A stretch of DNA of 64,000 bases, taken from Strigamia acuminata. Its lineage: Eukaryota > Arthropoda > Chilopoda > Geophilomorpha > Linotaeniidae. Both the position numbers and the translations under genes were made by a program. Under the pieces are notes generated by a model that was not told where the DNA came from, made no database searches, and saw only the letters and a list, made by a program, of their open reading frames with translations. The stretch is from the NCBI GenBank assembly GCA_949358305.1, contig OX442314.1:28257118-28321117 (forward strand), written 5' to 3'. Below, piece by piece: positions 4,311-63,888 of the stretch; positions within the stretch are counted from its first letter, which is position 1, and each line of letters starts with the position of its first letter.

Positions 4311-7300
4311 TTAAACTCGAGAAAATGATGGGAGGTTTGCATGAATGGTTATAAACTGATCAACTATCTTTTGCAATAGTTCTGGAATTGCAAGAATTGA
4401 AAGGCCAAGCATTAGTGCAAAAGAATTTCCAATATCACAGCACAATGCAACTGTAGTGTAGGTTAAAATTTGGGTAATCTCTTCAATTATGTTATTCATT
4501 GGAAATATACCAAGAATCTTGACTGGGAATGCGTCTTTATCTTGAATGAAAACGTAAGTGTCAAATATTTGTTCTTCGCAAGGTGGATCACAACCACAAT
4601 CTTTCGTTACATCAAGTTTTAAAGAATTGTTCATAAATAGTTGTACCGAAAAAATTGCTTCTTCAGCATTTGCACAGGTATTATTTGTTACATTGAGCAG
4701 GAATGGTAGCCTAAAATTGTAAACTTTCATTATGACCAATGTTGAATTATTACTGTTCAGTGATATCTCTAGAAATGATGTTACCCAGTGCACTAACTCT
4801 TTCGTGTCACCCCCTTCGATTTTCCCCGTGCACTTCTTTCACGTCCTCTTGGCCCAAGCAGTAACATGCTCACATTAAATTCTATGAAAAATTACTACTC
4901 ACTTGCATCGAACAGAATTATAAACCTTTTTTTCATAGCAATCATCTTGGCATTGTTTGTATTTGTCGTGGTGAAGACAAGGTTGAGCTTGCAAGTTTAA
5001 TCGAACGGTCTAAATTAAGCAATTGTTAGAAGAGGTTGTATGTAATCATCTGATGTATTACTTTGAGCATTTTAAATGTAATAATGACGAAACTGTTATC
5101 TACAACAGTTCTTCTACTTCTGAGAATTGATGGTATTTTAGCATCATTTTGTCGAAAGTATACCTAAATTGTAAGAAATAACGATTTACCACAATTTCTA
5201 CTTTCTACTTATACTTAAACTTGTAAGTTTACCATATCTATAGAGAGTTTGCGGGATGCATTTTTCCCTTATTTTGCTCCATGGTACACTATTTTATCGT
5301 AAGGAAAAAATCTTTAGTGTATCGTTTTCAACACTAAATTAAAATATAGCGTAGCCAATCAGAATTGAGAACACTATATTGTTAACTATATTGTTAACTC
5401 CGCCCATTGCAAATGGCGATTATTTTGTTGTCCCGATCAAAGACATCACAGTCATAGGTACGTAGATTGAATGATAAGTGAGGCCCAAAACCATACTTTA
5501 TAGGCATAATAATGGCATTTTATGCAGAAATTTGCACATTTACGCCCCCAAATTGAATTTTTAGGCCCAAAATTACTAACTGTCAGTAGTTGGCTGAAAT
5601 AGTGTAGCGATAAGGGAAAAGTGCAGCCTGCAAAAACTTAATTTATCATTTTTCCCTTACGCTATTTTTCTACCGTATAGTCTTTAACTGTAAGGGAAAA
5701 ATGCATCCCGCAAACTCTCTAATAACTTTTCTAAAGAACACCTTACCTATTCCAAATACTCAGTGGTGAAAAATATAGCAGAAAACAGGCCTAACCAAGC
5801 AGCCTCATATTCAGTTTTATTGTTTCAATTTGAAGGCATTACGACTTTAGACTTTAGACTTTAGACTTAAGATTTTAGCAACTATTTCGCCACTAAACTG
5901 TGTGTTAGTACAGAACCTACAGGGTGGGCCAAAAGTCACAAACCGGTCTGAAGTCTAAATGACTTTTTTATAAATAACTCACGACCAAAACAGTGAAGAC
6001 AAATTGAGAATTTTACTACCAAAAGCGAGGGTCAATTAACTCAATTTTGACCCAATGAGCGTATCAATTATTAGACATTTGATTGTTAAGACGTTTGATT
6101 ATTGGATGTTTGTTTAGGATTATTTTAGTAGAATTTAACTATTTTCGTTCTCTGTTTGATCGTGAACTTTTTCATGATTAATATTCAAAGTGTTCTTAAC
6201 AAAATAGTTAAAGTTCGTTACTTGTCCAATCCTGTATTATTCTACTACATAAACTGAGCTGGTTGACACTACTGTACTCGTATTCAAGTAAACTGAATAA
6301 ATACTACTACCACTACTACTTCACTTGTTATTTGAGTTTTGATGTGCATTAAACTACTGTATTTAAGTCAACTAAGTGCAATAATTGACGTTTAAACAAA
6401 TTCTACATTACGTCAAGCTCATGCTGATTACATTGACTTCTCAATTGTTGTACACCAAAAAATATTATTGAAGCAGTTCCTGCATATTTCATTGGAGCTG
6501 CAACAAGATAATGCTCGTATAAATATTGTTTATATAATTTCTGTAAAATGTCTAGTTAAGTACCGATGTCAGATTGATAGCATATTCCAGTCGGCATAGC
6601 TATTTCACTCCACGATACATTAGCTTTTACTCCAGCACCCTGCAAAAACATTTCTGATCAACTTTGAGTTAAATTGAATACAAGTACATGTATGTGCAAA
6701 ATTTGAGCTAGGCGATTAGAACATGTGACGGTTACGAATCGATAGTACATAAATACTTAATTTTGTCAATAGATGGCGCTGTTTGCAAATAGCGCCAAAT
6801 TCAAGCTACGAGTAAGATAAAGAAATATATAAATAAACTTATTTATTTATTTGCCAGATTTGATATAGCTTTATATCAGTAATAAATCAAGATTTATATG
6901 CAATACATACAAGAATAACTAATTTCCAAGGAAATTAGTTAAACTTGGCCAAAAGAATTAACAAGGGATTATGTCACCCCTCACACCTACACAGGTTAAG
7001 ACAAAAGACTTAATCTGAAATTGTCCTGTGTATCCAGTTTCTGTTCTCTTCTAAAAGAGAACTAGTGTCCTGTGTATCCAGTTGCTGTTCTCTCCTAAAA
7101 GAGAACTAGTGTCCTGTGTATCCAGTTCCATCAATACACTCGGTGCAATATTCGCGTAATGTCGATTTCATGTGAAACTGACATATGAACCTTATTCTGA
7201 GTTTTGGATTTAGATTTAGATTTTAGATTTATATTAATGTCTAAAACAACTCCTTTATTTGTTTAAAAATATATTTTTATATTTAATACCGAGAACTATC

Positions 7301-10300
7301 AAGTTCGTATTCGAATTTACCGCTAATATACTCTGGCCATGTGTAAGTTTGGTCTAACTCCGAGCCTCATAACTCACTTTGTGCTGCCACCAAGAAAAAT
7401 AGTTCATAGTTTATTGCTTGCTTCTTCCAGAAACCAAAACAATTTTAAAATTTATTATTGATTGTTAAGTCTGAAACAAAATGGATACCACTAACTCTGG
7501 CAGTTGGATCTATTTTCTGGTATCACTACACCAGAGAAAAGGCTCGGAGTTAGGCCAAACTTACACATGGCCAGAGTATAGCGGCAACATGTAGCATTGA
7601 CAAATGCGGGTTTTGCCGATAAATTTTCATAATTCGGACGAGTTAATAATAAATAACACTTTTAATTTGTCACAATACTTACAGAAATAGCCATCTTCAT
7701 TGCTGTTTTATCCCTCGAAGGCGTTTGGTATCGCCACACTTCTTCTATTGACGGTTTTTTGTTCTTAATAGTCATGTTCATTAAATTGATAAAATGAATC
7801 TTGCATTCATTCATGCCTATTTCTTGTGCATATCTCCTCCTGTAGCTAGTCATTAATGATACATCCTTACATGCAATTAAATTGGGCAAATATAATGTGT
7901 TATTTTCTTGAATAATTACCACATATCTTGTTGGTTCACTCAGATATAATGTGATTCTTTCTTTGCTCACATAAACTGCCAATATCGCAGAAGTAAATAT
8001 AAGAAATATATTCAGTGCAGATTGCAATAGAAGTCGTATTGGAGAGTGCTGTATCATAACCCGTGAAACACCTTTCTTTTTCTCAATGGCCAAATGTATT
8101 TGCTTAATAATTTTCTTTTTTATGCCCGCTTTAAATTGAACAGGTCTCATGTATTTAGACAAAATGAGAAGAAAGATTTGTCCAATTTCAATCAAAGATA
8201 GAAGAGAAAATCCCAAAGAGAATCCCAAATTGCCCCCAAAATCGACCACCAAGTCTGGAATGGTGTAAATGTAGACTTCTGTCACTCTGACAAACAATTC
8301 TTCCAATACTTTTAAATTTAGACTAAATAGATCTTTGCCACTTGGTTCATCTTCAAAATCTATCAAAAACATTAACAATTCTGTTAATTATGCAACAAAA
8401 TAAAAGAGATTATAGTTTAACTTGTATCAGTATGCATTATAAACAGATAAACACTCTGTTCACAAGGTCTCAAGCAACCACATTCTTCCGCTGACTGTGC
8501 AGTAGTCGTTGCAAATGCTTCGTCATACATTTCAGCCACAATTGATTTGTTTGGCTCTAAACTGCAATCCATCAAATTGTTGTTGGACATAAAAGGCAAC
8601 CTAAGTTAAAAATCTATGAGTATGTCAATGTTTATGTTTCAATGTTCAATGCAAATCTGACCTGCATCGTAGAGGATTCATTCTTGTCATACAGTCTTGG
8701 TAACATTGGATTTCTTTTATTTTATCCGGTTCGCATGAAGGGTTTCTTGAAGATAAAAATTGATACTGCCATAAAAGAAATGCAGCATTACTGTGTTTTG
8801 CTGAGCAATCACAATAAATAAGATGAATTAAATTAGTGATATCTGATACCCTTACTTTTCGAATGAGAAATTGCGCGTCTGATTCAATTCCTGACATCAC
8901 TGTAAAAGTATATTTGTATGGCATGACGTCAGTTAACACAGCCATCTAATTTTCAATTATGTAAAAATAAAAGAATAAGTTCACACTGTAGTAATAAAAT
9001 GGTAAAAGCTGAGATTCTTACGGAAATCTGTGGATTTTCACAACTTCCATTCTTTTTAAGAATCGTATGTAATTTCATATACTGCACTAATTTTCGATCT
9101 AAAAAGATTTAGCCAAAAAATTTTAAACTTTCAACCATAATTGATTTTTTTTTATTTTTCTAACCAGAATTAAGGACCAATGATTTTCCACTTATGTAAT
9201 CTCTATAGCTTACTGAAATTTCTGTGTTATCTTTCCTAGAAATTCCTTCTTTAATTGTTGTTTCATGCAGTACAGTTTTACCCTAAAAAAATAATACATC
9301 TGTAAGCCTATATGTGATTCAACAAATTATAAGGACAACGTAAATGAATATTGATGAATAAATAAATATTTTTTATATCCGTTTGATCTTACGTCATTTG
9401 TTGTGATCCCAAATATTCCCGTAATATTTGGGTGAATTTTAATGTATACAATATATAAATAGGGGATTTTATGTAATTATTGCATGCATTTTATTTCACA
9501 CCTGCTACTGCTCTCAGCTGTTAAGGGAAAGCCATTGCTCGTTTCTTAGTATCAAAACTGCCAAATTGGGGGGTTGCTATAGCAAACTCCTAATGAGCAC
9601 CGTTGCTAGGCACGAAGTGTGCCAGGCACCCTCACCACTTTCACCACACTGTCCACAGCTCTGCACTCAACACACAGTTTACAATTAACAGCTAATAGTA
9701 TACAAGGTGTCCCAAATGAACGAAGCCGGTCAAATAACGAAAAGACTATTTGAGTGAGATGAATGAAACAAATGTAGTACTAGTAAACTAAGTGAGGGCA
9801 TTTCAAAAATGTGAAAAAATTTGACCTCTGACCTTTTCTTCAAGGTCATTCCAACTCTAACTTTTAAACTAAGACTGGTAGAGCAAAATTCTCAATTGAA
9901 AAAAGAAAGAGCACCTTCTGTTTAGTAGAAAACTGCTCATCAAATTTACTCCGACACAATAACAAATAAAATTACGAAAAAAATAAATCATGAAAAAGTC
10001 TTGATCTTGGTTTTCTTTTTTGTATATTTTAACTTTTTCATAATTTTATTTGTTAAATATCATTTAAAATACTAGTTAAATTCATAACAATTCATGACTG
10101 CATAGTAATTGAATACAAAAAAGTCAAAAAATACAAAAATGAAAACCAAGATCAAGACTTTTTCATGATTAATTTTTTTCGTAATTTTATCTGTTATTGT
10201 GTTAGAGTAAATTTGATGAGCAGTTTTCTACTAAACAGAAGGTGCTCTTTCTTTTTTCAATTGAGAATTTTGCTCTACTAGTCTTAGTTTAAAAGTTAGA

Positions 10301-17284: not shown

Positions 17285-17286
17285 GT

Positions 17287-19274: not shown

Positions 19275-22200
19275 TTAGTATCTGGTTTTTTTAACTCGAG
19301 AATATGATGGGAAATGTGCTTTTATATTTATTCCGAGTACCATAAACTGATTTACTGTCTTTTGCAATAATTCTGGAATTGCTAGAATTGAAAGGCCAAG
19401 CATTAGTGCAAAAGAATTTCCAATATCGCAACACAGTCCAACTGCAGTGTAGGATAATATTTGTGTAATCTGTTCAATTATGTTATTCATTGGAATTAAA
19501 CCAAGAACCTTGAGTGGAAGTAATTCAGGATGTTGAATGTACACATAAGTGTCAAATATTTGTTCTTCGCAAAGTGGATGGCATCCACAGTCTTTCGTTA
19601 CGTCAACTTTTATGGAATTCTTCATGAATAGTTGTAATGAAGAAATTGCTTCTTCAGCATTTGCACAGATATTATTTGTTACATTATCCAAAAATGGTAG
19701 CCTAAAATTATAAAGACTTATTACAATCCGGTGCAGTAACTCATGATGCCTTCCCCTTCGACTTTCCCCATGGACCTCCTCCGAGTCCTCTTGAACCAGC
19801 CCGAAAGAATTGGCCACCTTTCACTCCCTAAGATGGGTATTTTTTGACCCAGATTCTGCGCATGCGCAAAATCCGGGTTTTAGGGAATTCCGAACATCTA
19901 GCAAATGGGGTTAGATTGTCTATTCATGTAGTGAACGCCATATGGACGTGGTGGACATGATTGACATTAGCGGAGCCTGCTGATGATCATAATTTTTGAC
20001 CTTTGGATTCCTAAGATGGGTCTTTTTTGACCCAGTTAAACTGAGTTCAAATTATAGAAAAACATAAAAAATTAAAAAAATTTCAACTGTGGTATAGTGT
20101 CTGGTGATGTTTCAAAGGAATAGTCACCAAAAATCAGATAAAAAAAAATTATTAAAATAATAATTTTTTTAAAACGGGGTCACAAAATGACCCATCTCAG
20201 GGTTGGAAGGGTTAATGTTTGTAAACTTAGATTCTAATTTAACCAAGAACTTGAAAAAAAAATTAGAGATAGACACACGACAGTCTTATTTTGCAGTCTG
20301 ATGTCACCCTGATTAATGGTGTAAGCCAGTGCAGCCCTGAATTGTGGGAAAGAATTTTTATTTCTAACTCTAGTACTCCTGGACTTTGATGGCCCAAGTA
20401 GCAACATGCTCACATTCAAATCTGTAAAGAATTACGACTCACTTGCATCGAACAAAATTATGAATCATTTTTTTATAACAATCATCCTGGCATCGTTTGT
20501 ATTTGTCATGGTCAAGACAAGGTTGTGCTCGTAAATTTAATCGAACAATCTAAAAAAGAGCAAATGTATCAAGAGTTTATGTGTAATAAACTGATGTATT
20601 ACTTTAATCATTTTAAATGTAATAATGACAAAGGTGTTATCTACAACATTTCTTCTACTTCTGAGAATTGATGGTATTTCAGCATCATTTTGTCGAAAGT
20701 ATATCTACAAAAGAAATTACAATTACCAACAATTTCTACATTTACACATGTAACTAAACATAACCGCAGTACAAGTACACCTGAGAAACCCGTCCATCTA
20801 AACAGTTTACCATTAACCATGACTTTCCCTGAAACTTATACATTACGTTACGTTTTCCACATACTCTCAGTGGTGAAAAATATTATAAAGAACAGTCACC
20901 ATAACCAATCTGTACTGAAGGACTATTACAGAATTGATCAAAACATACATGACGGCACACTGATCTGTTTAGTCTTGTAGTCAGTTTGATTAAGATCTGG
21001 AATAGCAGATATTGGTAGCAACTATTCTAACCAGATTTTTTGAATTGAATATTCCATTCTTTTATTATCATTTTTACCGTACCGAATACTTAAAATTGCA
21101 ACAACATTTTTCAGTTCTCTTTTAACTGAATTGTAGCTAAATAATGGTCGAATGTAGAATCATATCTTAACACCATGATTCATTACGTACTTTATTTTGT
21201 TATCTTTAAAAAATTATATGAAAATTGGTCATGACATGAACTTTGTTTTGACCAATATTCCATTTATTTGGCAAGAAGTTGTACATTACTTCATACTCAT
21301 GCTGATTACATATTTGACCTGCCAATGGTCGCAGACTAAAAAATATTAGTGAGCCAACTCCGGCAAATTGCAGTGGTGCTGCAATAAGATAATGCTCGCA
21401 TTAATATTTTATGTACAATTTATATAAAATGTCTATTTATCTACCGATGTCAGATTGAAAGCATGTTCCAGTTGGCATAGCTATTTTACTCCATGTTACA
21501 TTAGTTCTTACTCCCGCACCCTGAAAAAACATTTATGATCAACTATGATCAATCTAGGTTACGTTTGATGCACCGGTACAGCAGATCCTCAACTTAATGT
21601 AATGGTGTGAAATAAAGGAGTACTACTCAGTTTGATTGCTTGTTAACAAGTGGTCTTTATTATTTTCTCCTCAAACGGCTTTGTCATTGGCCTTGACATT
21701 ACCGCCCTCTAGTGGGCTATTGCGACACTACATCCCTCCCCCCAATACATCTTTGAGAGACATTACAATACAATAAATTCGAGGAAAGACCATCAGATCA
21801 CACAATACATAAAATATCATTAAAGATAGATTTTCACATCACATACAATTTCACTATTTCTTCTTTCCTCGAGACGTCGATACAAAGTTCCCGTGCCATG
21901 CAGGTGTCGATCTTTGCGACTTCCGTAAAGCCACCGGTGGTTCAGCTTGTTGTGGCGGCTCAACATGAAGCATCAGCTCGGCTTGGGGTATCTGTTCTCT
22001 CTGGGGTCTCAATTCCTCATCAAGCAACGGCACAAGTTCAGTTTGGAGCGTCGGCACCAGCTCGACTTGGAGTGTCGGCTCCATCTCCTCCTCCTCAGCC
22101 ACCTCCCTCTCCACGACAACTTTCTCATCCATCTCCTCCTCATACTCCCGACCATTCCTCTCCTTCCCTCCTTCAGGTTGTCCATGTATCCTTTTAAAGA

Positions 22201-25200
22201 AAGAAGCGTGCCAAACGACAGTTTGTGTCCCTCTCCTAGTTCCAATCTGGGATCCTGCTATCGATATTATCTTAAATGGTACCAAGTCGTACAGGGTGGT
22301 CAATTTGTTCATCTTTTTTCTCTTGATTAAACTAAATTTCCCATTGCCAAATTGTGTTCCTTCACTTGTCTCTTTTCATCTGCTAACGTCTTCATCTTCA
22401 TCTTCCTTTCTTCATCTCTTTTTCTCACCAATTCATCCTCTTGTAGTGCGAATGTTTGCGGTAATCTGGTTTTTATCGGTCGCCTAAACAACAATTCGGC
22501 CGGTAGAACACCTGTCGTCGCATGCGGTGTTGCCCTATAATTCAGCAGGAATTCACCAATTTCTTTATGCCATCTCCGGCCCTCTGTCACGGCCTCCAAG
22601 ATGGCTTTGTTTAAAGTCCTCATAAAGCGTTCCACTTCACCATTGGCCTCTGGCCACAATGGCGTCACACGCTAATGTTGTACTCCCATGTCCTTTAAAA
22701 ATTCAGCAAACTCGCCTGATGAAAATGGCGGCCCGTTGTCCGACTTAATAGCCTCCGGAATACCCAATTCCTTAAAACGTATAATTGTATTACTTGCTAT
22801 TTTCTTATTTTGAAGCAATCCCTAGTACAAAACTTGCAACCATTGTGGAAATCGCTGAAATAAAGTGATTAAAGGCACTGTTGTGACGGTATACAATGGC
22901 TATAAATGCTTATTTTTTCACCGGAAAGCACTGTTACGCCATTATGGTGGTATTTAGGCTATATTTGCTGTAAAACTGATAAACGTCTGAAATAAAGTTA
23001 TTTATGATGTTTCAAATACAAAGATGTTCGTTCATTAGGAATAAACACTCATTTTTACATGACACTAAAGTATCACGGCGTAATTACGAAGAGTCGTCTG
23101 CTAAACCCGCATTTGTCAATGCTCCATGCTGCCACTAGATGGCGCGATTGCAAATTAGAGGTAAATTCGAATACAAACTTGAAGACCTCATGATTAAGTA
23201 TAAACATACAAGATGTTTCGTTTAAGACTCCCCAGTCAATTTCCAGAATAAGTATATGTTTTTTTAAAAAACCAAGCAGATTATTCTATAGCAAAGTTCG
23301 GATGACGAATCCAATGGTGTAATCATATTTCACGCCAGACATGCAACAATGCACTTTTCATTTGCTAAATCGTTAGCTGGTTAAGATAGAGCAAAATTTC
23401 CAATTACAAAGTTGTAGAGCACCATCAAATTAGTACTATCCAACTTATCTTACAAGGGGAGAGCACCAATAAGCTATCACAGATTGTTGTAATATTAAAC
23501 AAGAAGGATTGTTAGATCATGCTGAATGAGACCCTAAAATAATTTCATTCCATAAACAGCCAACAATGCAAACAATGAGCTGAAAGTTGGCACTATTTTG
23601 TCTGTGTATACATCAAATCTGAGCAATCAGGCCTAGTGTATGAATACTGTAAACAACAGTTGCTAGGTAAAAAATAGTTCCAAGATCCAAGTTCAATTTT
23701 ATCATTTGAGATTCAATGATGTCATTTCCTCTTTTGATATCACATGACATATGACATCAGAACTTTGTTCAACAACATGACTGTCTTCATGAAGACAATA
23801 ATAGTTTGTAGTGGTGGTCCAGTGGTTAAGGCAATGGACTAGGTATCTTTCCACACAGGTTCAAATCCTGTTGTGTGTGAAAATTTTTACATTTATTTTT
23901 TGTTAAATTTTAGCAGTTATTTTAATGTTTGTAATTTTATATTTGTTTTCAGAAAATTTTAATTTGATTAATTTTAATTTTTTAACAAATATAAAATTAC
24001 AAACATTAAAATAACTGCTAAAATTTAACAAAAAATAAATGTAAAAATTTTCACACACAACAGGATTTGAACCTGTGTGGAAAGATACCTAGTCCATTGC
24101 CTTAACCACTGGACCACCACTACAAACTATTATTGTCTTCATGAAGACAGTCATGTTGTTGAACAAAGTTCTGATGTCATATGTCATGTGATATCAAAAG
24201 AGGAAATGACATCATTGAATCTCAAATGATAAAATTGAACTTGGATCTTGGAACTATTTTTTACCTAGCAACTGTTGTTTACAGTATTCATACACTAGGC
24301 CTGATTGCTCAGATTTGATGTATACACAGACAAAATAGTGCCAACTTTCAGCTCATTGTTTGCATTGTTGGCTGTTTATGGAATGAAATTATTTTAGGGT
24401 CTCATTCAGCATGATATAACAATCCTTCTTGTTTAATATTACAACAATCTGTGATAGCTTATTGGTGCTCTCCCCTTGTTAGTCATCTTAAGTTAATTTT
24501 TTCATTTTAAAATGAAAACAAATCAGTTAAAATAAAGCCAGCCATTGTGGCAAAAATTAAATTTCGACTGCAAAAGTACTGAATTTCTTCAATAAATGCA
24601 TTCAAATTTGCATTATTATGCAAGTAAACAAGAAAAACCACTGTATTTTTTTAATGCCTAAATTATTTTATTTTGTAAGAATAAAAGTTTTCAATTTGCT
24701 GATGTTTTCCTTTTTTTAAAAAAAAACAACAGTTAACTTAAGGTGACTAAGATAAGTTGGATAGTACTAATTTTATGATTCTCTACAACTTTGTAATTGA
24801 AAATTTTGTTCTATCTCGACCAGCTAATGAGTTAGCGAATGAAAAGTGCATTGTTGCATGTCTGGCATGAAATTTGATTACACCATTGGATTCGTCATCC
24901 CTACTTTGCTACAGGATAGTCTGCTTGCTTTTTTAAAAAAGCATATACTTATTCTGGAAATTGACTGGGGAGTCTTAAACGAAACACCATGTATGTTTAA
25001 TCAAGTGAATGAATTATTTTAAACATTAATATAAATATATATTAATATCTGACATTGTTGAATACAATGTAACTTCCATTTTCTGCGGAATAGAACATTT
25101 GATGATCAAACAAATCATTCGAATGATCTGATTGGTGGAATCCATTTCCGGTCCTGGGTATCCAGTTTCAGTTATAACCGGATTAGCATAATCTGCATTA

Positions 25201-28200
25201 TGCTCCCCCGTATCCACTTCCAGTATTACGGGATTGGTGGGATTCACGGAAAGATCAAATTATTGACACCCACAAAACAATTGAAAAAACCCACAAAAGT
25301 ATTTAATTCCAATTATACACCAATTATTCACACACTATTTTTATTTATTTTTCCACCAATTCTAGTTATCAACACCCCAAAAATATTTATTTCCACACTG
25401 TTTACTTATACACTATTTCTCTTGATTTTGCCACCAAATATTAAACATCCCCTAGTTTTAAGTTTGCATGTCTTATAGAATGTTGGACAAGTACAAGTGG
25501 CTTCATCCCATTTGTCCCCAGTCATGGTTACAAACCAGAGGGAGTGTACGTTTGTCGGTAGGTATCGAATCGGCGCCAATTTTGAAGTTGGGTCTGCCTC
25601 AAACTCAAGTATGTGCCAATGTCTTGTTCACGCAGACAATGACCAACATGCCACCCAACAAAACGATTCAAGTACTCCTCCTCAAAGTAATCCTGAAAAT
25701 CAACAACACTTGTATCCGGTCTCCACTTCTTCAACAATAGGCCTTTTGCTACGTCGAACCTGCAGATATGGCATTGAATAGAAATGCAAAGTCATCTTTA
25801 GTTTCTGATTTCACAACAGCAATGTAGGTAGGATGAAACGTACGATTCGCATCTGAGCACCCCGCAACCAACACAGGAAAGCCCTGCCACAAAAGCTTGT
25901 ATGTCGCATCGGTTTGAAGTGTTGAACACTTTTCCTGTATGGCTAGCAATCGTTTTGTGGTGTAGCAGAACCGAAAATAATTATCCCTTCCATCATCGTC
26001 GAAAACGTCATGAAAACGTTTGGAAATCGATAAAAAGTCTTGTAAACGTTTTGGGAAAAATAATGGAATTTGGGGGTTACATTCAAGGATTTGGGGACAA
26101 AATCAATATGTGTGCATTTAAATATTTTCGGTGTTTTGGAAAATATAAATAGGGTGTCGATAAATACAACCCATTCATGGAACCCATGTTCCAATTGGAT
26201 AAGTGGCCAAATCACTTAATCCAGTCCAGGGTATATAACTCCTGACAACAGGAAGTTAGTTAGTTGTATTTGTTTTCTGCACCACACTACAGCTGTTCAC
26301 ACCCACGACTTGAAGCCTGCAAGGAGTATCCCCGAAGAAGTTAAGCAGAAAATTATAAAACTGCACCAGAATGGCGTCACACAACCTATATTAATTCTGC
26401 GCAAGCTTCCTGCAAGGCGTTCGTTGCACTCCATGTGAGCCGATTTTTTCGCTCGGCCAGCTGCAACAAAGAATTGAAGCCGATTCTACGAGGCCACTTA
26501 GTGACGATGACGCGTTTATACTGCAACAGGGATTTAAAATTGGCGACAATGATGAAGACTGCTGGTTTAGGATTTGTTACACAGCAAATCGGTTGTTACA
26601 AATTAGTTTTAAATGCGAGATGTTGCAAGCGGATGCAACATACAAACTAAACTGGCATGGTTTTCTCGTTCTAATTGCAAGCTGTTCTGATGGACATCGC
26701 GTTTTCCATCCACTTTGTGTAGCTGTCTGCAATGCAAGTACAAGACCGCTGAAGACTTTGCATTCATATTTCGAGCCTTGTCGAATAAACCCGCGACCGT
26801 TTTAGGTGATTGTGCAGTAGCAATCACTAACGTGAGCAATCTGGTGTTTGGGGCTGACACCGTACAAGTCTATTGCTGGGCCCACGTAATACAGAATGTT
26901 GATTTTAATATAAATAATTTTAATTTTTTAACAAATATAAAATAACAAACATTAACTTTACTGCTAAAAATAAATAAAAAATAAAAGTAAAAATTTTCAA
27001 CACACTATTGTTGCCTTCATGCAGGCAGTCATGTTGATGAACAAAGTTGTGATGTCATATGTCATGAGATATCAAATTACTTGGGTTCCAGAGTAAGGTT
27101 TGAACAGGCTAATCACCAAGTGTAGTGCTACACTTGACTTTTTTACTCAGTCTATTTGCATGAAAAATGAACTCCCACAGCCAACAAAGTTCTACTTTGG
27201 CAATGTCATTGTTATTTAACTCTAGCTTAAAGAGCAAAATGCTTTGAAATGGTTAAAGAACTACTTGTAATTGTTATCTCACATAATTAATTTTAAAATT
27301 TTAAAATAGCTTATTAGCGCTCTCCCCTTGTCAGATGATTGGTTAAGTGTTGGTCACTCAAAAGGAACATGGAATGCGTTAATGTGAAAAAGTTCGCTGT
27401 GACGCCATCTGTTTCTTTGCAGCATTACACAGACTGCTACAATTGGAAACAAACTAAACCATGTGTGATTATCCGGTCAGCTGAAAATGTGAAGTCACCC
27501 CGAATGGACAGCCTTGTTTAAATGACAACCCTATTGACACATATCTACGTCAGGAGGAACGAAAAAGCTGGCGCCAATTTGAGACATACATCCAGTCAAG
27601 AAATTGTTTGTGGCATGTGAGGATTGCTAACAATGAATATGGTGTCGCTTTCTGTTGTGTAGCTAGTTGTGGTTTTGAGGAGATAAGCCAGTGACGAGCC
27701 ATCTTAGATGAGGGTCAAGACAAAAGTCGTCTTTTTAATACTCTACTTTTACAAGGGAGGTGACTACTGGTGCGTCACAAACAAAATGGGTGTAACAAAC
27801 CCCTTGTTACACTTAACAATAAGCTTATGCATAATCTCGCAATCATGTGATTGGATGCAGAATGCTGGGTGCATTCGTACTCAATCCTTAATATTGGCGC
27901 CCTATTAAAACACTGGTGCCAATACTGTTTAATTTACTGTCACGTCTGGAACTCAAGTTGATGTTTTTCCATGGTTGACTAATTAATTTGCGCAGTTGTT
28001 AAGTTCGCGCAAATGGGTCGCAGGCTCGTGAGAACGTTCGTAACAATGCCGCCGCGCAATATGGACGGTTGGCGGTAAAACGCTCTCAACTCGCTGTTAT
28101 TACAACTAATATTTTTACGACAGGTTACTCTACTTACAGTTGATGTTGTTTGTAAGAATAAACGTGCACTGGGTCAAACTTCAACATGGGTGGAGAATGA

Positions 28201-31200: not shown

Positions 31201-32992
31201 GGCTTTTTGGTTGTTGTAGCGCCGATGCTGTCGGTGGTATGGGCCCGAATCCACCGCATTTTCCAACTGTCTGTCTCTAGCACTGGTTTTTGCTTGACGA
31301 TGTCCAACCCGAGGTACAAAGTTCAACCCCATCCAAGATGACATTAACACGGGCTTAGGGGATGGGATTTGGACGTACACATTAGGTCCATTTGATCATC
31401 GGGTGGTGCTAGACATGATATTACTGACATTGATGTAGTAGTTGAACTCATGTTGGAATCAATGGAAATTAGTTAAGATGATGAAACAATGGGCAAGGGA
31501 AATAGTTCAAAAACAAGAGTAGGAAAGATTTAGTTACTTTGGTAACATAGAAGAAATAAATCAAAGTCCACGACGTTGGATTATCGTCGCGGGGTTTTGC
31601 GCAATTTACAACACAAACACATAGAAGTTTTTAAGTTATTAAAGAAATATTTGCCCAATTGTAACACTTCAATAATCCGCAACACTGAACCGGCACCTAA
31701 ACCGCCATATTGTTGAGCAACGAAAGTCTGTTGACACTACAACACTCGGTTGACGTCGCCGGGTCCAGTTGTCGTCGCCGGGTCCAGTTATCGTCGTGAT
31801 TCGTCGGTGGTATTTCCAATCATTCTCATGAAATATCCTTGTCCCTAATTTAATCAATGCAAAAGTCAGAGTTCTATAATTACGCCATATTGCATCTAGA
31901 TGAAATTCAGGTTCAGAAATGCAAGCAGTCAGTCTCCGTGGGTATGCAGAGAAGCCATATTCATCTTTGTATCACAGTGGTCAAAGTTGCGGCAGATGGC
32001 TCAGCAGATTGAACTGAAGGACTCACATTGGTCTGGCTCAGATGAAGCATCAACGACTGTGGGTGGACTCAACACACTCAAAATGGTGGTGGTATCTGGA
32101 ATGTTTAGATCTTTGGACATCACAAGTATTAATCACAGAAATAATGACGATTTCGTAGCTGTCCTTAAAGTTCAGGCATCAATGCAAACAATGGATCACA
32201 TACCAATGCTGTTGGGTGCTCCAATACAATTGCTGAACTTGTAAAACTGTTTGCTGATGTTAAAAGGCGATAACACATTACCTTAACACGGCACACAACA
32301 CCAAACACACCTGACAAACGGTAGTTCAATATAGTGTTGCTCTAACCAGGATAGTATGCGCAATTGAAATTGCGCTTTAAACAAGGAATGATAATCGTAT
32401 ATTCATGCTGCCTCTGCTGACACAAAGATCCGAAGGCAAGGTACCACTTGGCACCTTGCAGTAGTGTTTGCATACACTATAAGCCCCAGAAGTGACCTCA
32501 GATATGGAATCCTTAGTAGCAAAGTTCAGTGTTCCTCACATTTATGGCACAAAGATTCAGAGAATGGCGTACTGGATTCCAGTCCAGATCCATAGCAAAC
32601 CAACTATTGTTTAGAAATAAGATGTGGGTGGTCTGAAAGGATACCTAGGTGACAGCTGGGTACTTCAGTTGGTTTGTTTGCCCAAATGGGGTCTCTTGAT
32701 GCACAATGAGTAGAAACAAAGCTGCGCAGTAAAATCATGACCTGCCGCATCCCTGACAGCACATGGAGTACAGTAGACTTTTAATTCAAAGTGAAACACC
32801 CAAATGCACGTCACAATGCTGATGGTCACCCTGAGCTGGAAGCCTATGATGGTGCTTACAGATTGTTTAATACTATGAATGATTGGTAATAAACACTTGG
32901 AAAATAAAGGTGAAAGAATAAATTAAACAATAAAAACGATAAAACAATTAGAAACAAAGATAAACAAAAATATAGGTGGGTAGCACTATTTT

Positions 32993-33027
<35 letters not shown>

Positions 33028-39000: not shown

Positions 39001-40225
39001 CATCATTTCGATAGCTTAGTGAAATTTCTGTGTTATCCTTTCTAGAAATTCCTTCTTTAATTGTTGTTTCATGCAATACAGTTTTGCCCTGAAAGATTAT
39101 ACGATTATAGATGTAATTCAGCAGATTACTGTATACATATAGAATACACACTACACATACATGTGACGCCAATAATCAAGTAGAGGGCACCTGTGCCGGG
39201 TACGATCTAGACTTGGCTTTCAGGTTATACTAGTTAGTATGTCTCTATATTAAAATGCTTTCACCAAATGTATGTATGTACATATGACTTACAACTTTTA
39301 ATGAATTTATCACACAAGTCAGACATAAACAGACCAATGGCCCTGAGATAAGCCCTAGCCTACATGGGGTGATCTGACCCAGCAATGAAGTGGAGAGGTT
39401 TGAGTAGTGCAGGGAGTCCTGTTGTGGACAAGGAACAGGGATGTGAATAATTTTCATTCCCCATATTATAAAAAAATTATGGCATCATGTTCATGAATTT
39501 ACTATCATTTACTGTCATTTACTGTCAGCAGTGTCATGTACTACTAACACTTGTTTTGCCTTATTTTTTAATAACAATTTTTACTTATGGTGACAACTGT
39601 AGGATGCTGGGCTTCAGCATCACAGTGACCAATCCTCTGGCATCCCTTCATTAAAAACTAACAATTACAAGAACAGTTTCATAACAACTAATATCCGATC
39701 CAGTAATAAGAAAATAATAAGATTAAATACCTGTCTTATCTTGACGTGCTGTAAATTGCTTGAAATGTTGCTTTTTAACCAAAAATCTGCATAATTTTCA
39801 ATTTTCACAGCTGCAGAAATCATGCTTCTCACTGGCAAAATACATTGACGTAATCTTTCGAGTTTGTCTTGCATTGAAGAAACTTCTTCCATTTTTTCCC
39901 AGTATTCGGACAAAGATCCGGTATCGAGACCAAATAACCTAAATTCTGCGTATGTCATTTCACCTATTGGAACATATTCAATTTCAACTTTGAAATGTCC
40001 ATCAAAGTAGAATTGGATTCTTTCCATTGTTTGGTAACAACAAATGGTGCCACAAACGATCAAAACAACGAACCAAACAGCCCGGACTAAACTTCGCTTT
40101 TTTTTGTTGAAAACATTATCAATAAACTTCAAACTATCATTGCCTGACAGGGAAGTTTGCATTTCTTGCCGTACAAAACGACGAATATGACTTCGACGAA
40201 GCCTAAGAGCTTTCACCACAGTCAT
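19275..40225 (-). CDS. Double-unit DEG/ENaC channel, gene 2 (12 exons)
   Basis: Exons: 40225-39731, 39088-38971, 38908-38829, 38754-38665, 38088-37985, 37927-37746, 37683-37007, 21520-21445, 21378-21290, 20704-20603, 20549-20443, 19701-19275. Total 2547 nt, 848 aa plus stop, all in frame. Exons 1, 2, 4, 5, 7, 8, 10 and 11 have the same length as in gene 1; small in-frame differences fall in exons 3, 6, 9 and 12, and the C-terminus gains a KKTRY tail. Both units keep the CGC...C cluster (ECGCLRPCE, DCGCHPLCE) and the GxS filter. Intron 7 is 15,486 bp against 1,043 bp in gene 1 and 369 bp in gene 3, because it is full of nested transposons. The ORF is intact, but whether so long an intron is spliced efficiently is unknown. 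Confidence 0.85.
19815..20216. mobile_element. Possible piggyBac-type MITE
   Basis: CCCTAAGATGGGTATTTTTT at about 19826 is inverted imperfectly as GGGTCACAAAATGACCCATC ending at about 20203. Reading inward from the right border gives TTAACCCTTCCAACCCTGAG, the TTAA-plus-CCCTT pattern of piggyBac ends. The left border lacks a clean TTAA. A second copy of the left motif lies at 20009. Gene 3 lacks this segment at the matching place (about 59045-59075). Confidence 0.5.
21598..21732 (-). repeat. Short 3' LTR of truncated Gypsy element C
   Basis: TGTAATGG...CACTACA, 135 bp, followed at 21733 by TCCCTCCCCCC. That is the complement of a polypurine tract for a minus-strand element, placed exactly at the LTR edge. 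No partner LTR is visible. Confidence 0.7.
21854..22815 (-). pseudogene. Gypsy C integrase and C-terminal tail remnant
   Basis: Minus strand shows the integrase core (IKSDNGPPFSSGEF, then PLWPEANGEVERFMRTLNK) and the post-integrase region with GTRRGTQTVVWHASFFK and a Glu/Pro-rich tail. A TAG near 22669 interrupts the frame and a frameshift near 22320 separates the last part. Sequence upstream of about 22815 is lost, so no RT remains. Confidence 0.85.
22816..23200. other. Non-coding; edge of an old dispersed repeat
   Basis: No gene. Bases 23105-23190 are the reverse complement of the repeat flanking the MITE at 7329-7578 (AACCCGCATTTGTCAATGCT, GGTAAATTCGAATACAAACT). I see nothing else recognisable. 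Confidence 0.5.
23808..23879 (+). repeat. tRNA-Ser-derived sequence, left arm
   Basis: GTAGTGGTGGTCCAGTGG, then TTAAGGCAATGGACTAG and GGTTCAAATCC follow the animal tRNA-Ser pattern. The T-arm pairs perfectly (ACAGG/CCTGT); the acceptor stem does not, and the long variable arm is missing. Boxes A and B would support pol III transcription. Confidence 0.7.
24053..24123 (-). repeat. tRNA-Ser-derived sequence, right arm
   Basis: Inverted copy of the left-arm unit with the same sequence. The two units are divergent in position and convergent in direction: transcription from each runs toward the palindrome centre. Confidence 0.7.
24482..24747. mobile_element. MITE inserted in the right palindrome arm
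   Basis: Ends GTCATCTTAAGTTAA and its inverse (one mismatch), with TA on both sides (24480-24481, 24748-24749). The left palindrome arm has the uninterrupted target (CTTATCTTACAAGGGG), which proves the insertion and its TA duplication. Confidence 0.9.
25000..25527. other. Non-coding; no clear feature
   Basis: AT-rich sequence with a GGGTATCCAGTTTC-like motif near 25155 that resembles the repeats in the Gypsy LTRs. Otherwise nothing I can support. Confidence 0.4.
25528..25949 (-). pseudogene. MULE transposase fragments, minus strand
   Basis: The stretch TDATYKLLWQGFPVLVAGC with SDANRTFHP and FAFLFNAI matches the DDE core of Mutator-like transposases. A second piece (FEEEYLNRFVGWHVG) resembles the region after the core. 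They are in different frames with the intervening part deleted. Confidence 0.75.
26300..27700 (+). pseudogene. MULE transposase remnant, plus strand, split by a foldback arm
   Basis: ADATYKLNWHGFLVLIASC with SDGHRVFHPL and, after a frameshift near 26735, TAEDFAFIFRAL, GDCAVAITNV and YCWAHVIQNV mark the DDE core, here on plus. The match stops at about 26905, where a copy of the foldback arm begins. After it, RQEERKSWRQFETY at about 27555 resembles the C-terminal segment of the minus-strand fragment. The two fragments are in opposite directions about 0.7 kb apart, so they may be the remains of two insertions. Confidence 0.65.
26905..27337 (-). repeat. Solo foldback arm lacking the tRNA unit
   Basis: It matches the palindrome arm from the AT-rich centre (TTTAATTTTTTAACAAATAT) through ATGTCATATGTCATGAGATATC to a GCTCTCCCCTTGT end, but the tRNA-Ser-like segment is deleted between TTTTCAACACA and CTATTGTTG. 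Confidence 0.65.
27938..28770 (-). repeat. 3' LTR of the non-autonomous element
   Basis: TGTCACGTCTGG...CCCATGACA, 833 bp, with no difference from the right LTR that I could see by eye. It contains about nine GCGCA/TGCGC motifs. The 64-codon frame inside it is not conserved coding sequence: it simply recurs because the LTR does. Confidence 0.92.
35952..35969 (-). promoter_or_regulatory. Primer-binding site, probably for tRNA-Ser
   Basis: Minus strand reads TGGCGAGCCTGACAGGAT, 3 nt inside the right (5') LTR. Its complement ends ...GGCTCG-CCA, a tRNA 3' end with G at the discriminator position, the serine identity base. That it is tRNA-Ser is my inference from G73 and the AATCCTG T-arm. Confidence 0.75.
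35973..36805 (-). repeat. 5' LTR of the non-autonomous element
   Basis: 833 bp, apparently identical to 27938-28770. It starts TGTCACG and ends ATGACA. On minus it is the upstream LTR and so should hold the active promoter. Confidence 0.92.
36865..37006 (-). other. Candidate alternative 3' end of gene 2 in intron 7
   Basis: Beyond the exon 7 donor the frame stays open for 43 codons and stops at 36875. AATAAA follows 4 nt later (36865-36870, minus). Gene 3 has the same arrangement at 62096-62237 with no indels. Use of this end would give a chain with all of unit A plus TM1b but no TM2b. This is inference: intron retention alone would produce the same open frame. Confidence 0.4.
38177..38605. 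mobile_element. GC-rich MITE in intron 4 of gene 2
   Basis: Ends TACCGTACCGCCCCGTTTAA and its exact inverse, with about 29 bp of perfect TIR including the terminal TA. Internally it repeats GGGCGTTTA/GGCGC-type modules and a CCGCC...GGCGG hairpin, so it is far richer in CpG than its surroundings. No ORF. Genes 1 and 3 lack it in this intron. Confidence 0.88.
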
Positions 40226-54334: not shown

Positions 54335-54352
54335 ATCTCGGTGGAACCTCCA
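54335..54352 (-). promoter_or_regulatory. Primer-binding site for tRNA-Gln
   Basis: Minus strand reads TGGAGGTTCCACCGAGAT, 2 nt from the 5' LTR. Its complement ATCTCGGTGGAACCT-CCA is the 3' end of animal tRNA-Gln as I recall it, over the full 18 nt. Confidence 0.85.
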
Positions 54353-54354
54353 CG

Positions 54355-58521: not shown

Positions 58522-61500
58522 TTAGCATCTGGCTTTTTTAACTCGAGAATATGATGAGAGGTGTTCTTTTAGATTTATTCCGAGTACCATAAACAGATTT
58601 ACTATCTTTTGCAAGAATTCTGGAATTGCAAGAATTGAAAGGCCGAGCATTAGTGCAAAAGAATTTCCAACATCGCAACACAATGCAACTGCAGTGTAGG
58701 ATAATATTTGTGTTATCTGTTCAATTATGTTATTCAGTGGACTTATAGCAAGAACATTGAGTAGATATGCTTTTGGATGTTGAAAGTGAATGTAAGTGTC
58801 AAATATTTGTTCTTCACAAGGTGGATGACATCCACAGTCTTTTGTTACGTCAACTTTTAAGGAATTCTTCATGAATAGTCGTAATGAAGAAATTGCTTCT
58901 TCAGCATTTGCACAGGAATTATTTGTTACATTATCCAAAAATGGTAGCCTAAAATAATAAAGACTTATTATAACACGGTGCAGTAACTCATGGTGTCATC
59001 CCCTTCAACTTTCCCCATGGACCTCCTCCGAGTTCTCTTGTACCAACCTAAACAGACTCTTTAGTTAGGTTTGTAAATTTAGATTCTAAATTTACAAATG
59101 ACTAAAAAAAAGGACAATAGAATTTGAGATAGACACACGACAATCTTATTTTGCATTCTGATTGAATGGTGTACACTCCAGGTCAAATTTTTTTGACCAC
59201 CTGATATTTTATAGAAGGACCAGTCTGATGGCAAAATTATTTTTGTATTTGAAATCTACATGTAAGATAACCCTAAATTCTATAAAAATAGAAATAATAA
59301 TGAGTCGATATTAACAATGAGAAGAAAATTTTGATTTTTTTCAAATTTTCCAAGTCAAATCTTTTTGACCAATCAAAATTTCTGCTAAAATTTTGCTCAT
59401 ATTCAAATTATATGTGATGCCTAATTTCCGTATCATCATATTACAGCCATTTTTGCTAGATAAACATGTATTCTATGACTATTATCACTAAAGTAAGAGA
59501 ATTAGTGGCAACTGGCAAAAGTTATCACAAACTCGCACAAGATATGAGTATTCCATACACTACTGTGCGGTACATGTGTTCAAACGCATATAACAGACGT
59601 AAAAAGAAGTGTGGACCCAAAAAAAAATTGAATTGCCATGATAAACTGAGATTAAAGCGAGAGTTGCGCCAACTGCAGGCTGCGAAGAAAAGAGTAACCG
59701 CACCAAAACTCAAGAAAACATTAGAATTACCAGTCCGTGTGAGAACACTTCATCGGGAACTTAAAGCCCAAGGCTTTTGCTACACTATTGTGCAGAAAAA
59801 ATTACCTCTAAGTGATAAACATAAACTCAAACGTTTGGAAATCGTTAAGGCCTGGATTCACAGGAATCATCCATGGACCTCAGCTATCTTTACTGATGAG
59901 AAACGCTTCCCATTCGATGGGCCAGACAATTTTGGGTCTTATATAGATGGCAATTCATCAATCCCACTAAGAAAAAAGCGACAACAAGGTGGTGGCTCGA
60001 TAATGGTGTGGGGCATGATGCAGCCAAATGGTATTCTTTATTTGGATCGACTACATGGACGTGTGAATTCACTTCAATACATTCAACTACTTGCTACATC
60101 AGTTCTACCCTTTCTCCTGACTCAATTTGGAAAGGAACTATTTTGGTTTCAGCAGGACAATTGTCCCATTCACACCTCAAAAGCAACAATGAAATGGTTC
60201 GGACAGAAGAAAGTTCCTGTTTTAGAGTGGCCTGCCTGCAGTCCGGATCTGAATCCGATGGAAAATGTGTGGCATTTGCTCAGCAACATTGTTTACGATG
60301 GACAGCAGTTCAATAACACTGATAACTTATGGAATTCTATCCTTGATGCCAGTGAAAAGCTGCAGATTGAGAAAACTGATGTTCTGCTTAATTTGTACAG
60401 CACTTTCCCACACAGACTCACCGAAGTGCTTGTGAACAAAGGCGGTGAGACGAAACACTAGTGTGTATCATCAAAATCAGTTTGTATGCAACAAGATTGC
60501 CATTTTTCTAAGATGGTCAAAAAGATTTGGCTTGGAAAATTTGAAAAAAAATCAAAATTTCCTTCTCATTGTTAATATCGACTCATTATAATTTCTATTT
60601 TTATATTGTTTAGGGTTATTTTACATGTAGATTTCAAATAAAAAATTAATTTTGCCATCAGACTGGTCCTTCTATAAAATATCAGGTGGTCAAAAAAATT
60701 TGACCTGGAGTGTAAGCCAGTGCAGTCCACACTCTCTGAACTCAGGGAAGGAATTTTTATTTTTAACTCTTAGTAGAACTCCTGGATGCAATTATACAGT
60801 ATTACAATGTATTTTGAAATGCATTAAGTTTTACAATACACTTGATTGGCAATGCGTTTTCTAATACATTTTTGCATGCTATTTGTTACAAATAACAATA
60901 CATTTTTGAAAATGTATTTTTAACTATTCACATTTCAGCTAAGACTAAATTAACGTTATGCCAATTCTGCAATATTCTCGTCTGGTTTTTTGCATAAAGC
61001 TCCACAAGTCCTGGATTTTGAGGGCCCAGCCGGCAACATGCTCAAATTCAATTGTGTGAAAAATTATGACTCACTTGCATCGAACAGAATTATAAATATT
61101 TTTTTCATAACATTCATCCTGGCATCGTTTGTATTTGTCAGGGTCAAGACAAGGTTGTGCTCGTAAGTTTAATCGAACTGTCTAAAATAGAGCCAATGTT
61201 TCAACAGTTTATACAGTATGTAATAATCTGATTATTACTTTAAGCATTTTAAATGTAATAATGATGAAAGTGTTATCGACAACACTTCTTCTACTTCTGA
61301 GAATTGATGGTATTTGAGCATCATTTTGTTGAAAGTATATCTATGAAAAAAAATACGATTTACCGCAATTTCTACATTTATACTCATAAGTAAAAATATG
61401 AGCAGTTCCTGTGTGCTATTTAAACCCGTGAAACAACCATCCATGTTCATTTACCATAACATGACTTTCCTTAAAACTAACATTACCGTTGTTATGTTGT

Positions 61501-63888
61501 GTTTACCAAATACTCAAAGTGGTGAAAAAAATTTGAAAACTATTTGAATAATGAGTTAGTTGCCACTATTCTTGACAAAAGTGTTAATTGAAACGTGATA
61601 GGTGCATTAATTGACGTGTACACGAATTATACATTACTTCATACTCATGCTGATTACATATTTTATCCCGCAATGGTAGCAGCCTAAAAAATATTACTGA
61701 GGCAACTCCCGTAAATTTCATTGGAGCTGTAACATGATAATGCTCATATTAATATTGTAAGTAAAATTTATATAAAATGACAATTTATGTACCGATGTCA
61801 GATTGAAAGCACTTTCCAGTTGGCATAGCTATTTTACTCCACGTTACATTAGTTCTTACTCCAGCAGCCTGCGAAAACATTTATGATCAACTTTCAGTTA
61901 AATTACACACGTTTGTAGATTAAACAATTCTATTTATTATAAAGTGCAACCTGATTTTGAAACCTTCTCTAAAAATTAATTCTGTTTTGAATAGAAACTG
62001 TAACCCACGGTAACCCACTAAGAAAATAACATCCCAGAACAACAGAATTTTCTATTCTACATTCTGCCTAGCACATCCACTTCATTAGTATAAATTTTAT
62101 TTGGTTTATAAACCTTTCGTGATTTGATGATACGTTATGTGTATCATGATTTGCCCACACCTGCGTAGCATTGCGATTTTGAAGCACGTTTCCGCAATGT
62201 TATTCAGATGTGAACCCATCTTTAGCGGAATACTTACCAAAGTAGCAGCGTTCATTGCTATTTTATCCATCACAGGCGTTTGGAATCGCCACACATCTTC
62301 TATTGACGGTTTTTTGTTGTTGATAGTCATGTTCATTAATTTGATAAAATGAATCTCGCATTCATTCTTGCCAATTTCTTTAGCATATTCCCTCCTTTTC
62401 TTAGTCATTACGGATCCATCCATACATGCAATTAAATTGGGTAAATACAATGTGTGATTTTCTTGAATAATTACCACATATCTTGTCGGCTCACTTATAT
62501 ATAATGTGATTCTTTCTTTGCTCACATAAACTGCCAATATTGCAGAAGTAAATATAAGAATTAAATTCAATGTAGATTGCAGTAGAAGTTTTTTTTGTGG
62601 CCGCTGCACCACACCTTGAGAAACATCTTTCTTTTTGTCGATGACCAAATGCATTTGCTTAATAGTTTTCTTTTTTATGCTCGCTTTAAGTTGGGCAGGT
62701 CTGATGTATTTAGACAAAATGAGAAGAAACATTTGTGCAATTTCAATTAAAGACAGAAGAGAAAATCCCAAAGAGAATCCCAAATTGCCTCCAAAATCGA
62801 TCAATAAGTTCGGAATGGTGTAAATGTAGGTTTCTGTCATTCTGACAAACAATTCTTCCAATACTTTAAGATTGAGACTTATTAAATCTTTGCCATTTGG
62901 TTCATCTTGAAAATCTAATTTAAAACATAATAATTTTGAGAATTATTCATAAACATAGAAGATATTATAGTTTAACTTGTATCAGAATAGAGTATAAACA
63001 AATAAACACTCTGTTCACAAGGTCTCAAGCAACCACATTCATACGATGGCAGTGTAGTCGTTTCATGGATAAATGCTTCCTCATACATTTCAGCCACAAT
63101 TGATTTGTTTGACTCTAAACTGCAATCCATCAAAGTTTTGTTGGACATAAAAGGCAACCTGGTAAAATAAAAATCTATGAGTTTATCAATATTTAGATGT
63201 TGCATGCAATTAGACCTGCATCGTTGAGGAATTTTTTTCCTCACACAATCTTCATAGCATTGGGTTTCCTTTTTCTTATCCGGTTCACAATAGGGATGTC
63301 TCGAAGCTAAAAATTGATACTACCAAAAAACAAATGCAGAATTACTATTGTAGGTGATCCATCAGAATAAACAAGATTGAAAAGCTGATATCTGATGTAC
63401 TCAAACTTGTACACTTTTGTGATGCACTATAAATTTCACAATATCTACAAATACAACAGCTTACACTTCGAATAAAAAATTGAATTTCAGATTCAATTCC
63501 TGACATCACCATGAAAGTGTATTGGTAAGACATGACGCTAACTATCGTTGTCGCCTAATATTCAATTGTGTAAAAATAAAAGTATAAGTTACAAACTCCA
63601 ATAAAATAGTAAAAGATGAGATTCTTACCGTAATCTGTGGCTTGACACAGTTGGTTCTATTCGTTTTAAGGAGCATGTGTGATTTCATATTTAGTGCTAA
63701 TTTTTTATCTATAAATTTAGCCAAAAATATTAAAACCTCAAAATTATTTTATTTTGTTTTTATTTCTAACCAGAAGTTAAGACCAAAGATCGTCCACTGA
63801 CATCATTTCGATAGCTTAGTGAAATTTCTGTGTTATCCTTTCTAGAAATTCCTTCTTTAATTGTTGTTTCATGCAATACAGTTTTGCC
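58522..63888 (-). CDS. Double-unit DEG/ENaC channel, gene 3 (exons 2-12; exon 1 off-window)
   Basis: Exons: 63888-63771, 63708-63629, 63554-63465, 63319-63216, 63158-62977, 62914-62238, 61868-61793, 61726-61638, 61340-61239, 61181-61075, 58948-58522. Every exon has the same length as in gene 2, and all join in frame with GT-AG borders. Unit A keeps ECGCLRPCEQ and FGGNLGFSLGFSLLS; unit B keeps DCGCHPPCEEQ and GNSFALMLGLSILA. The C-terminus is VKKARC. It is closer to gene 2 than to gene 1 in indels and tail. Exon 4 begins GCG where genes 1 and 2 have ATG, so that ATG is internal. The intron between exons 11 and 12 holds a complete Tc1 element. Exon 1 should lie just beyond 64000. Confidence 0.85.
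59174..60712 (+). mobile_element. Complete Tc1-type transposon with about 198-bp TIRs
   Basis: TIRs 59174-59371 and 60514-60712 begin CACTCCAGGTCAAATTTTTT and match closely over about 198 bp. TA flanks (59172-59173, 60713-60714). Gene 2 shows the unoccupied site at about 20315-20335 (AATGGTGTAAGCCAGTGCAG), which confirms the borders and dates the insertion after the gene duplication. Confidence 0.95.
59466..60461 (+). CDS. Tc1 transposase, intact (DD34E)
   Basis: 331 aa. Paired helix-turn-helix domains: YHKLAQDMSIPYTTVRYM at about 20-37 and a second at about 78-104. The catalytic triad is Asp144 (FTDEKRF), Asp231 (QQDNCPIH) and Glu266 (DLNPMENVW); 34 residues separate the last two, the Tc1 spacing. 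There are no stops or frameshifts, so it may be active. It binds the TIRs and cuts and pastes the element at TA. It is transcribed opposite to the host gene. Confidence 0.95.
   Translation: MYSMTIITKVRELVATGKSYHKLAQDMSIPYTTVRYMCSNAYNRRKKKCGPKKKLNCHDKLRLKRELRQLQAAKKRVTAPKLKKTLELPVRVRTLHRELKAQGFCYTIVQKKLPLSDKHKLKRLEIVKAWIHRNHPWTSAIFTDEKRFPFDGPDNFGSYIDGNSSIPLRKKRQQGGGSIMVWGMMQPNGILYLDRLHGRVNSLQYIQLLATSVLPFLLTQFGKELFWFQQDNCPIHTSKATMKWFGQKKVPVLEWPACSPDLNPMENVWHLLSNIVYDGQQFNNTDNLWNSILDASEKLQIEKTDVLLNLYSTFPHRLTEVLVNKGGETKH
62096..62237 (-). other. Candidate alternative 3' end of gene 3 in intron 7
   Basis: The frame stays open for 43 codons past the exon 7 donor to a stop at 62106, then AATAAA at 62096-62101. 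It has the same length and layout as gene 2, with about ten substitutions in 132 nt and no indels. Gene 1 stops after four codons instead. Confidence 0.4.

Follow-up and report, generated by a model that had tools for sequence, protein, structure and literature searches.

The 64-kb stretch of DNA analysed here, referred to as the window (C1:28257118-28321117), carries three genes on its minus strand, each of which, as read from the DNA, very probably encodes one chain of two complete DEG/ENaC units. Gene A (4311..15397) consists of 12 open coding exons, located on the minus strand at 15397-14903, 9282-9165, 9098-9022, 8945-8856, 8765-8662, 8600-8422, 8359-7683, 6639-6564, 6497-6412, 5163-5062, 5009-4903 and 4710-4311, which are separated by GT..AG introns and encode two units in 836 amino acids. 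Gene B (19275..40225, minus strand) likewise has 12 open coding exons with GT..AG introns and encodes two units in 848 amino acids. For gene C (58522..63888, minus strand), exons 2-12 lie inside the window, where they are open, are joined across GT..AG introns and encode 683 amino acids; an open exon homologous to exon 1 starts past the window end, at 65781 in window coordinates (L031). Rebuilding the chains of genes A and B in frame gave the same lengths as in an earlier note on this DNA.

The join between the two units lies within a single exon. The earlier note had claimed that in all three copies one uninterrupted exon of 677 nt holds TM2 of a first unit and TM1 of a second, and an open exon 7 of this length was found in each gene on the minus strand, at 7683..8359 in gene A, 37007..37683 in gene B and 62238..62914 in gene C, with the exon ends at 7683, 37007 and 62238 reproduced. 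In gene A, exon 7 contains TM2 of unit 1 (TM2a), a linker, and TM1 of unit 2 (TM1b) together with the first part of the unit-2 ectodomain; the order TM2a, linker, TM1b is the same in genes B and C. The linker of gene A (8034..8159, minus strand, coordinates derived from codon numbers 422-463) comprises 42 amino acids with a net charge of +11; it is 42 residues long in all three genes, with net charges of +11 to +12, and 34-46 amino acids long over 30 close copies (L001-L030, genes A, B and C among them), all of which are open. Hydropathy analysis of genes A and B recovered the four expected segments, TM1a, TM2a, TM1b and TM2b. The chain would run from TM1a through an ectodomain to TM2a, and then via the short basic linker to TM1b, a second ectodomain and TM2b, with both chain ends and the linker predicted to be cytoplasmic by analogy with two-TM members of the family.

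Between genes A and B, 8 of 12 exons are identical in length and the remaining four differ by 3, 3, 3 and 27 nt, an agreement that is qualified by the fact that exon boundaries were picked with the reading frame in mind. Intron 4 of gene A and intron 5 of genes B and C are short and could be read as open frame; that they are introns is evident from the remaining copies and from the matching junction of the partner unit. Intron 6 has a weak donor, GTTAAA. Exon 7 is free of stops after TM2a in all three genes, and the interval between TM2a and TM1b contains no methionine common to the three window copies, so that unit 2 has no conserved start of its own. Its separate translation is further disfavoured by the 30 close copies, among which any linker column has a methionine in at most 12. 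A cryptic linker intron was also considered and rejected, as the only GT common to A, B and C sits at the edge of the linker and fits 2 of 8 donor positions. Outside the exons, 17 matches were obtained in the window, the best with an E value of 0.59, and none represents a leftover single-unit piece. Beyond the exon-7 donor, the frame continues for 43 codons in genes B (36875-37006) and C (62106-62237), with an AATAAA 136 nt into intron 7, whereas gene A has just 6 further codons before a stop; transcripts polyadenylated early, within intron 7, may be a minor form in genes B and C. An AlphaFold prediction of exon 7 alone gave no usable fold (pLDDT 39.6), and scans of the window for tRNA genes and Rfam families were negative.

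The assignment of both units to the DEG/ENaC family is based on several features. Taken singly, units 1 and 2 of gene A match the Pfam ASC family (PF00858) with 76.7 and 43.7 bits, respectively, at a cut-off of 23.6. Each cysteine-rich ectodomain has TM segments at both ends and contains 13-15 cysteines in the five complete units; nine are present in unit 1 of gene C, whose exon 1 lies outside the window. The selectivity filter G/SxS reads GFS in unit 1 and GLS in unit 2 of all three genes. By eye, and with the window included in the counts, it is kept in 10 of 11 unit-1 lineages (L046 has GLA) and in 4 of 4 unit-2 lineages. The HG motif preceding TM1 is not visible by eye in either unit; according to the available text of a review, it is also absent from another family member (PMC8536179). 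The nearest solved protein for both units is the centipede broad-range thermal receptor BRTNaC1, followed by PDPNaC1, few arthropod members having solved structures. Judged by these centipede matches, the source animal is probably a myriapod. Units 1 and 2 are ca. 21% identical and match each other with 57.8 bits (BLASTP), while phmmer scores against BRTNaC1 are 47.3 bits (E 1.1e-11) for unit 1 and 65.7 bits (E 3.6e-17) for unit 2; allowing for the different programs, the units thus appear about equally distant from each other and from BRTNaC1. Scans of prokaryotic and viral contigs with exon 7 returned no relative. With four TM segments per chain in the gene models, against the two that define the family, the chains are DEG/ENaC members by unit and a variant by chain.

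Both units bear marks of selection. When neutral drift was simulated over the synonymous distances observed, a mean of 15.1 stops arose for A-B and 11.2 for A-C, with 0 of 1000 runs free of stops in either case, and 6.3 for B-C, with 2 of 1000 runs free of stops. The dN/dS values (Nei-Gojobori) for units 1 and 2 are 0.44 and 0.43 for A-B, 0.40 and 0.55 for A-C, and 0.71 and 0.61 for B-C, a pair whose value of 0.65 is relaxed. The linker, with few sites, looks unconstrained in the window pairs (1.51 for A-B, 0.74 for A-C, 0.87 for B-C). Over the 30 close copies, dN/dS along exon 7 is 0.41 before TM2a, 0.20 in TM2a, 0.44 in the linker, 0.36 in TM1b and 0.25 in the unit-2 ectodomain part. The ectodomain exons 2-6 and 8-11 evolve faster than TM2a and TM2b, while the ectodomain part within exon 7 is slow. 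As judged from these comparisons, the absence of stops and the dN/dS values show coding constraint. In pairwise alignments of introns, those above 800 nt omitted, 7 of the 34 gaps have a length divisible by three; the exon gaps, which come in multiples of three, were dropped as evidence of constraint, since the protein-guided alignment forces this result, and raw exon lengths were used instead. With three open gene models, both units constrained, exon 7 free of stops after TM2a and no shared methionine, the four-TM, two-unit chains proposed in the earlier note are well supported at the DNA level.

The three genes are only a small part of a much larger set. The genome (237,517,015 bases on 157 contigs) was searched six times with fused-exon proteins, which gave 150, 144, 142, 139, 149 and 147 matches; of these, 149, 140, 118, 131, 133 and 147, respectively, cover both TM2 and TM1b of the query and were retained and clustered by place into loci. 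At least 517 loci match across TM2, linker and TM1, a lower bound because each search scored the best 137-150 of 909-1897 candidates. The description of three tandem genes therefore holds for the window and badly underestimates the scale. An internal stop was noted in at most 20 of the at least 517 loci, ca. 96% being without one, a count in which decayed copies are under-represented because partial matches, several of them with stops, were dropped. Among the matches listed, 239 loci lie on C1, 135 on C6, 63 on C3 and 29 on C8. Identical scores were obtained for some loci, such as a group of three at about 3.02-3.05 Mb of C4; these loci may have arisen by recent duplication or be copies introduced by the assembly.

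The letters of 40 loci were examined (L001-L030 and L037-L046), while the others are represented by their match coordinates. For the more distant loci L037-L040 the evidence consists of signature exons rather than full gene models. In L037 (C6) and L040 (C3), a TM1a exon and a cysteine-rich exon are followed by a fused open reading frame of 288-300 amino acids with LPF (LPY in L037), TM2a, linker and TM1b, then by another cysteine-rich exon and a final exon that holds TM2b and a stop codon, after which L037 continues with TM1a of the next gene. Within the stretches examined, L038 (C4) lacks TM1a and L039 (C9) lacks the end of unit 2, the remaining exons being in the same order. These exons show exactly two units in L037 and L040, and L038 and L039 fit this over the stretch examined. 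All six of L041-L046 have TM2 and TM1 inside one open frame. There is no sign of genes with more than two units, as L037 and L040 stop after TM2b and the nearest loci among 503 gaps are 4.3 kb apart. At L047 (C11:5268700-5275600), two adjacent and apparently ordinary single-unit DEG/ENaC genes are found, so that single-unit and two-unit designs apparently coexist in this genome.

The intron plan bears on how the two units came together. Intron phases are 0,1,0,0,2 and then 1 in unit 1, and 0,1,0,0,2 in unit 2, in agreeing order. The intron before LPF is of phase 2 and splits the same codon in both window units, with the junction RC|LPF aligning exactly between them; the three loci inspected at this point (L037, L039 and L040) have an AG at the corresponding position ahead of LPF. 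Counted by eye, ten residues separate the preceding junction from the first cysteine of the exon that follows it in either unit, and the other three junctions match in order and phase only. Intron 6 is an extra of the window clade, located inside what elsewhere is one exon. In a tree of the TM2 half with 22 rows, unit 2 of four lineages groups together (support 68/75), and the three labels require 2 changes, the minimum possible, compared with a mean of 8.2 after shuffling and none as low in 200 shuffles. Most deep forks of the tree are weak, and unit 1 of the window stands apart from the other ten unit-1 rows. The equal intron phases and this weakly supported tree suggest that the two-unit genes probably go back to one old fusion. 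A pair of adjacent single-unit genes that shared one intron plan would have been joined once, the last exon of the first gene and the first exon of the second becoming one exon, and the two-unit genes would then have expanded in arrays.

The two units differ in the pore. Positions are numbered as in the available part of the review cited above for the HG motif (PMC8536179). The pore region of TM2 in the window reads DFGGNLG..GFS in unit 1 and D(I/V)GNSFA..GLS in unit 2. All 11 lineages read by eye for unit 1 (the window counted once, and L037-L046) keep glycine 3', and all 4 lineages read for unit 2 (the window, L037, L038 and L040) have N, N, N or S in its place; unit 2 of L040 has lost D0' as well. 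In PDPNaC1, the pore constrictions are formed by D372 and G375, as given in the available text of PMC12714832. Glycine 3' being kept in unit 1 and replaced in unit 2, the units are not equivalent in the pore.

As the known channels of the family are trimers, chains of two units are predicted to assemble in an unusual way. We tentatively favour an arrangement in which one chain fills two adjacent positions of a trimeric, cation-conducting sensory channel, and the third position would be taken by a single-unit relative or by one unit of a second chain; such a two-plus-one trimer is possible, if less than probable. Unit 1 would retain a canonical pore, and unit 2, without glycine 3', would take a specialised position. 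The single-unit genes at L047 indicate that partners for the third position could exist. A two-unit chain appears feasible by analogy with an artificial dimeric ASIC1a chain, which gives typical currents according to the available text of PMC4529235. The large number, diversity and clustering of the genes suggest receptors for chemical cues, and clustering and diversity, together with the fast ectodomain exons, fit sensory receptors; we lean towards the view that they form a sensory receptor set. Taken as a whole, the reading that combines a two-unit chain, a single fusion, a sensory trimer with two positions held by the chain and a specialised unit 2 seems reasonably likely, its assembly being the part that we infer.

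Other assemblies can be envisaged. Three chains might bridge two trimers in a double-barrelled channel, with unit 1 in one pore and unit 2 in the other. The units would then divide evenly, and the distinct pores, with glycine 3' in unit 1 and its replacement in unit 2, would suit two homomeric pores; however, a linker of 34-46 amino acids may equally serve neighbours within one trimer, and the literature search gave no precedent, so that we consider this arrangement unlikely. About equally unlikely is that two chains form a pore of four units, or a trimer with one unit idle. Tetramers of ASIC1a have been reported at the cell surface and the dimeric ASIC1a chain is functional, but in the accessible text of the same work the authors state that there is no direct proof of the tetramer being the functional form (PMC4529235), and the solved channels of the family are, in the sources available, trimers.

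The genes might also yield mainly single-unit chains by exon skipping. The joins 1-8, 2-9, 3-10, 4-11 and 5-12 each drop exon 7 and leave one normal subunit of 421-445 amino acids with TM1a and TM2b. All five of these homologous joins are in frame and open in genes A and B, and in length the products come close to the centipede channels with one unit, which have 421 and 431 amino acids. Matching phases are, however, explained by duplication alone, and 19 of the 55 possible skips are open, a share close to the third that chance alone would give. Moreover, a mostly skipped exon would not keep the purifying selection seen in exon 7, nor its lack of a noted stop in ca. 96% of the loci, which makes predominant skipping rather improbable. 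That the fusion is an artefact of annotation or assembly, or that the loci are decaying pseudogenes, is very improbable: some loci do have internal stops and broken partial matches were left out of the count, but a single uninterrupted exon contains the join in genes A, B and C as well as in the at least 517 matches, and the rarity of stops and the dN/dS values already disfavour such an explanation. Proteins with two ASC matches may exist in database entries of other animals, and such entries may be merged gene predictions, a point counted in favour of an artefact.

BRTNaC1 (PDB 8ymr, 8ymw and others) shares with both units the plan of TM1, cysteine-rich ectodomain and TM2. It differs in having a single unit per chain, with 431 amino acids in a trimer according to the material available on it, and in the presence of glycines 3' and 6' of the pore in the aligned TM2. 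PDPNaC1, a proton-gated centipede channel (PDB 9jf7) and the next-best match of the units, is described in the accessible text of PMC12714832 as a trimer of two-TM subunits of 421 amino acids encoded by nine exons; it also has one unit per chain, with Gly-Ala-Ser as its filter and with glycine at positions 375 and 378. Artificial ASIC concatemers such as 2ASICFP resemble the present chains in carrying two family units per chain and, as reported in the available part of PMC4529235, are functional in oocytes, but they are made in the laboratory from identical units, whereas the chains described here are genome-encoded and composed of unlike units. The pickpocket family is another large arthropod DEG/ENaC family, with 31 genes in Drosophila melanogaster, and is described as consisting of two-TM subunits in the available text of PMC3583452, in contrast to the at least 517 loci found here across a two-unit join.

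A limited literature search, with most subscription journals outside its scope, found no description of a natural two-unit DEG/ENaC chain. Such a chain in a family of trimers would make the subunit arrangement testable without engineered concatemers, and raises the question of how chains of two units are accommodated in a three-fold pore. With at least 517 loci, this would, to our knowledge, be the largest DEG/ENaC repertoire. Compared with the 31 genes of Drosophila melanogaster, this number would point to a receptor system that goes unmentioned under the respective words in two genome papers: in the text available, the main text of the Strigamia genome paper (PMC4244043) does not contain 'ENaC', 'pickpocket' or 'sodium channel', and the 2022 paper on myriapod genomes (PMC9151784) contains none of these terms nor 'degenerin'. 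The loci may thus represent a large, unrecognised set of sensory receptors. A more speculative and rather doubtful extension would be a chemoreceptor mega-family in which a variable two-unit chain provides two positions and a shared single-unit partner the third, comparable to an odorant receptor with its co-receptor. On that equally doubtful footing, the family would supplement the usual arthropod chemoreceptors, and the loss of glycine 3' in unit 2 would mark the specialised position.

Mobile elements are found in and around the genes. Between genes B and C lies an LTR element (41952-55945) with direct repeats at 41952-43545 and at 54352-55945, which share 99.94% identity and enclose gag-like and pol frames; for a 555-aa frame within the element (44204-45868), Pfam gave no match at E 0.01. 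Intron 7 of gene B, 15,486 nt long, contains mobile-element repeats, among them two of 834 bp that are 100% identical (27938-36806) and may be LTRs from a recent insertion by which the intron grew to 15.5 kb. In intron 11 of gene C (59172-60714), a Tc1-like transposase frame (59460-60461, DDE_3) is flanked by inverted repeats of ca. 200 bp with 95% identity. Frames of a Pao-like element are present at 2-2728 and those of a Gypsy-like element at 11040-13973, where they lie within intron 1 of gene A; another reverse transcriptase is encoded at 17436-18665.
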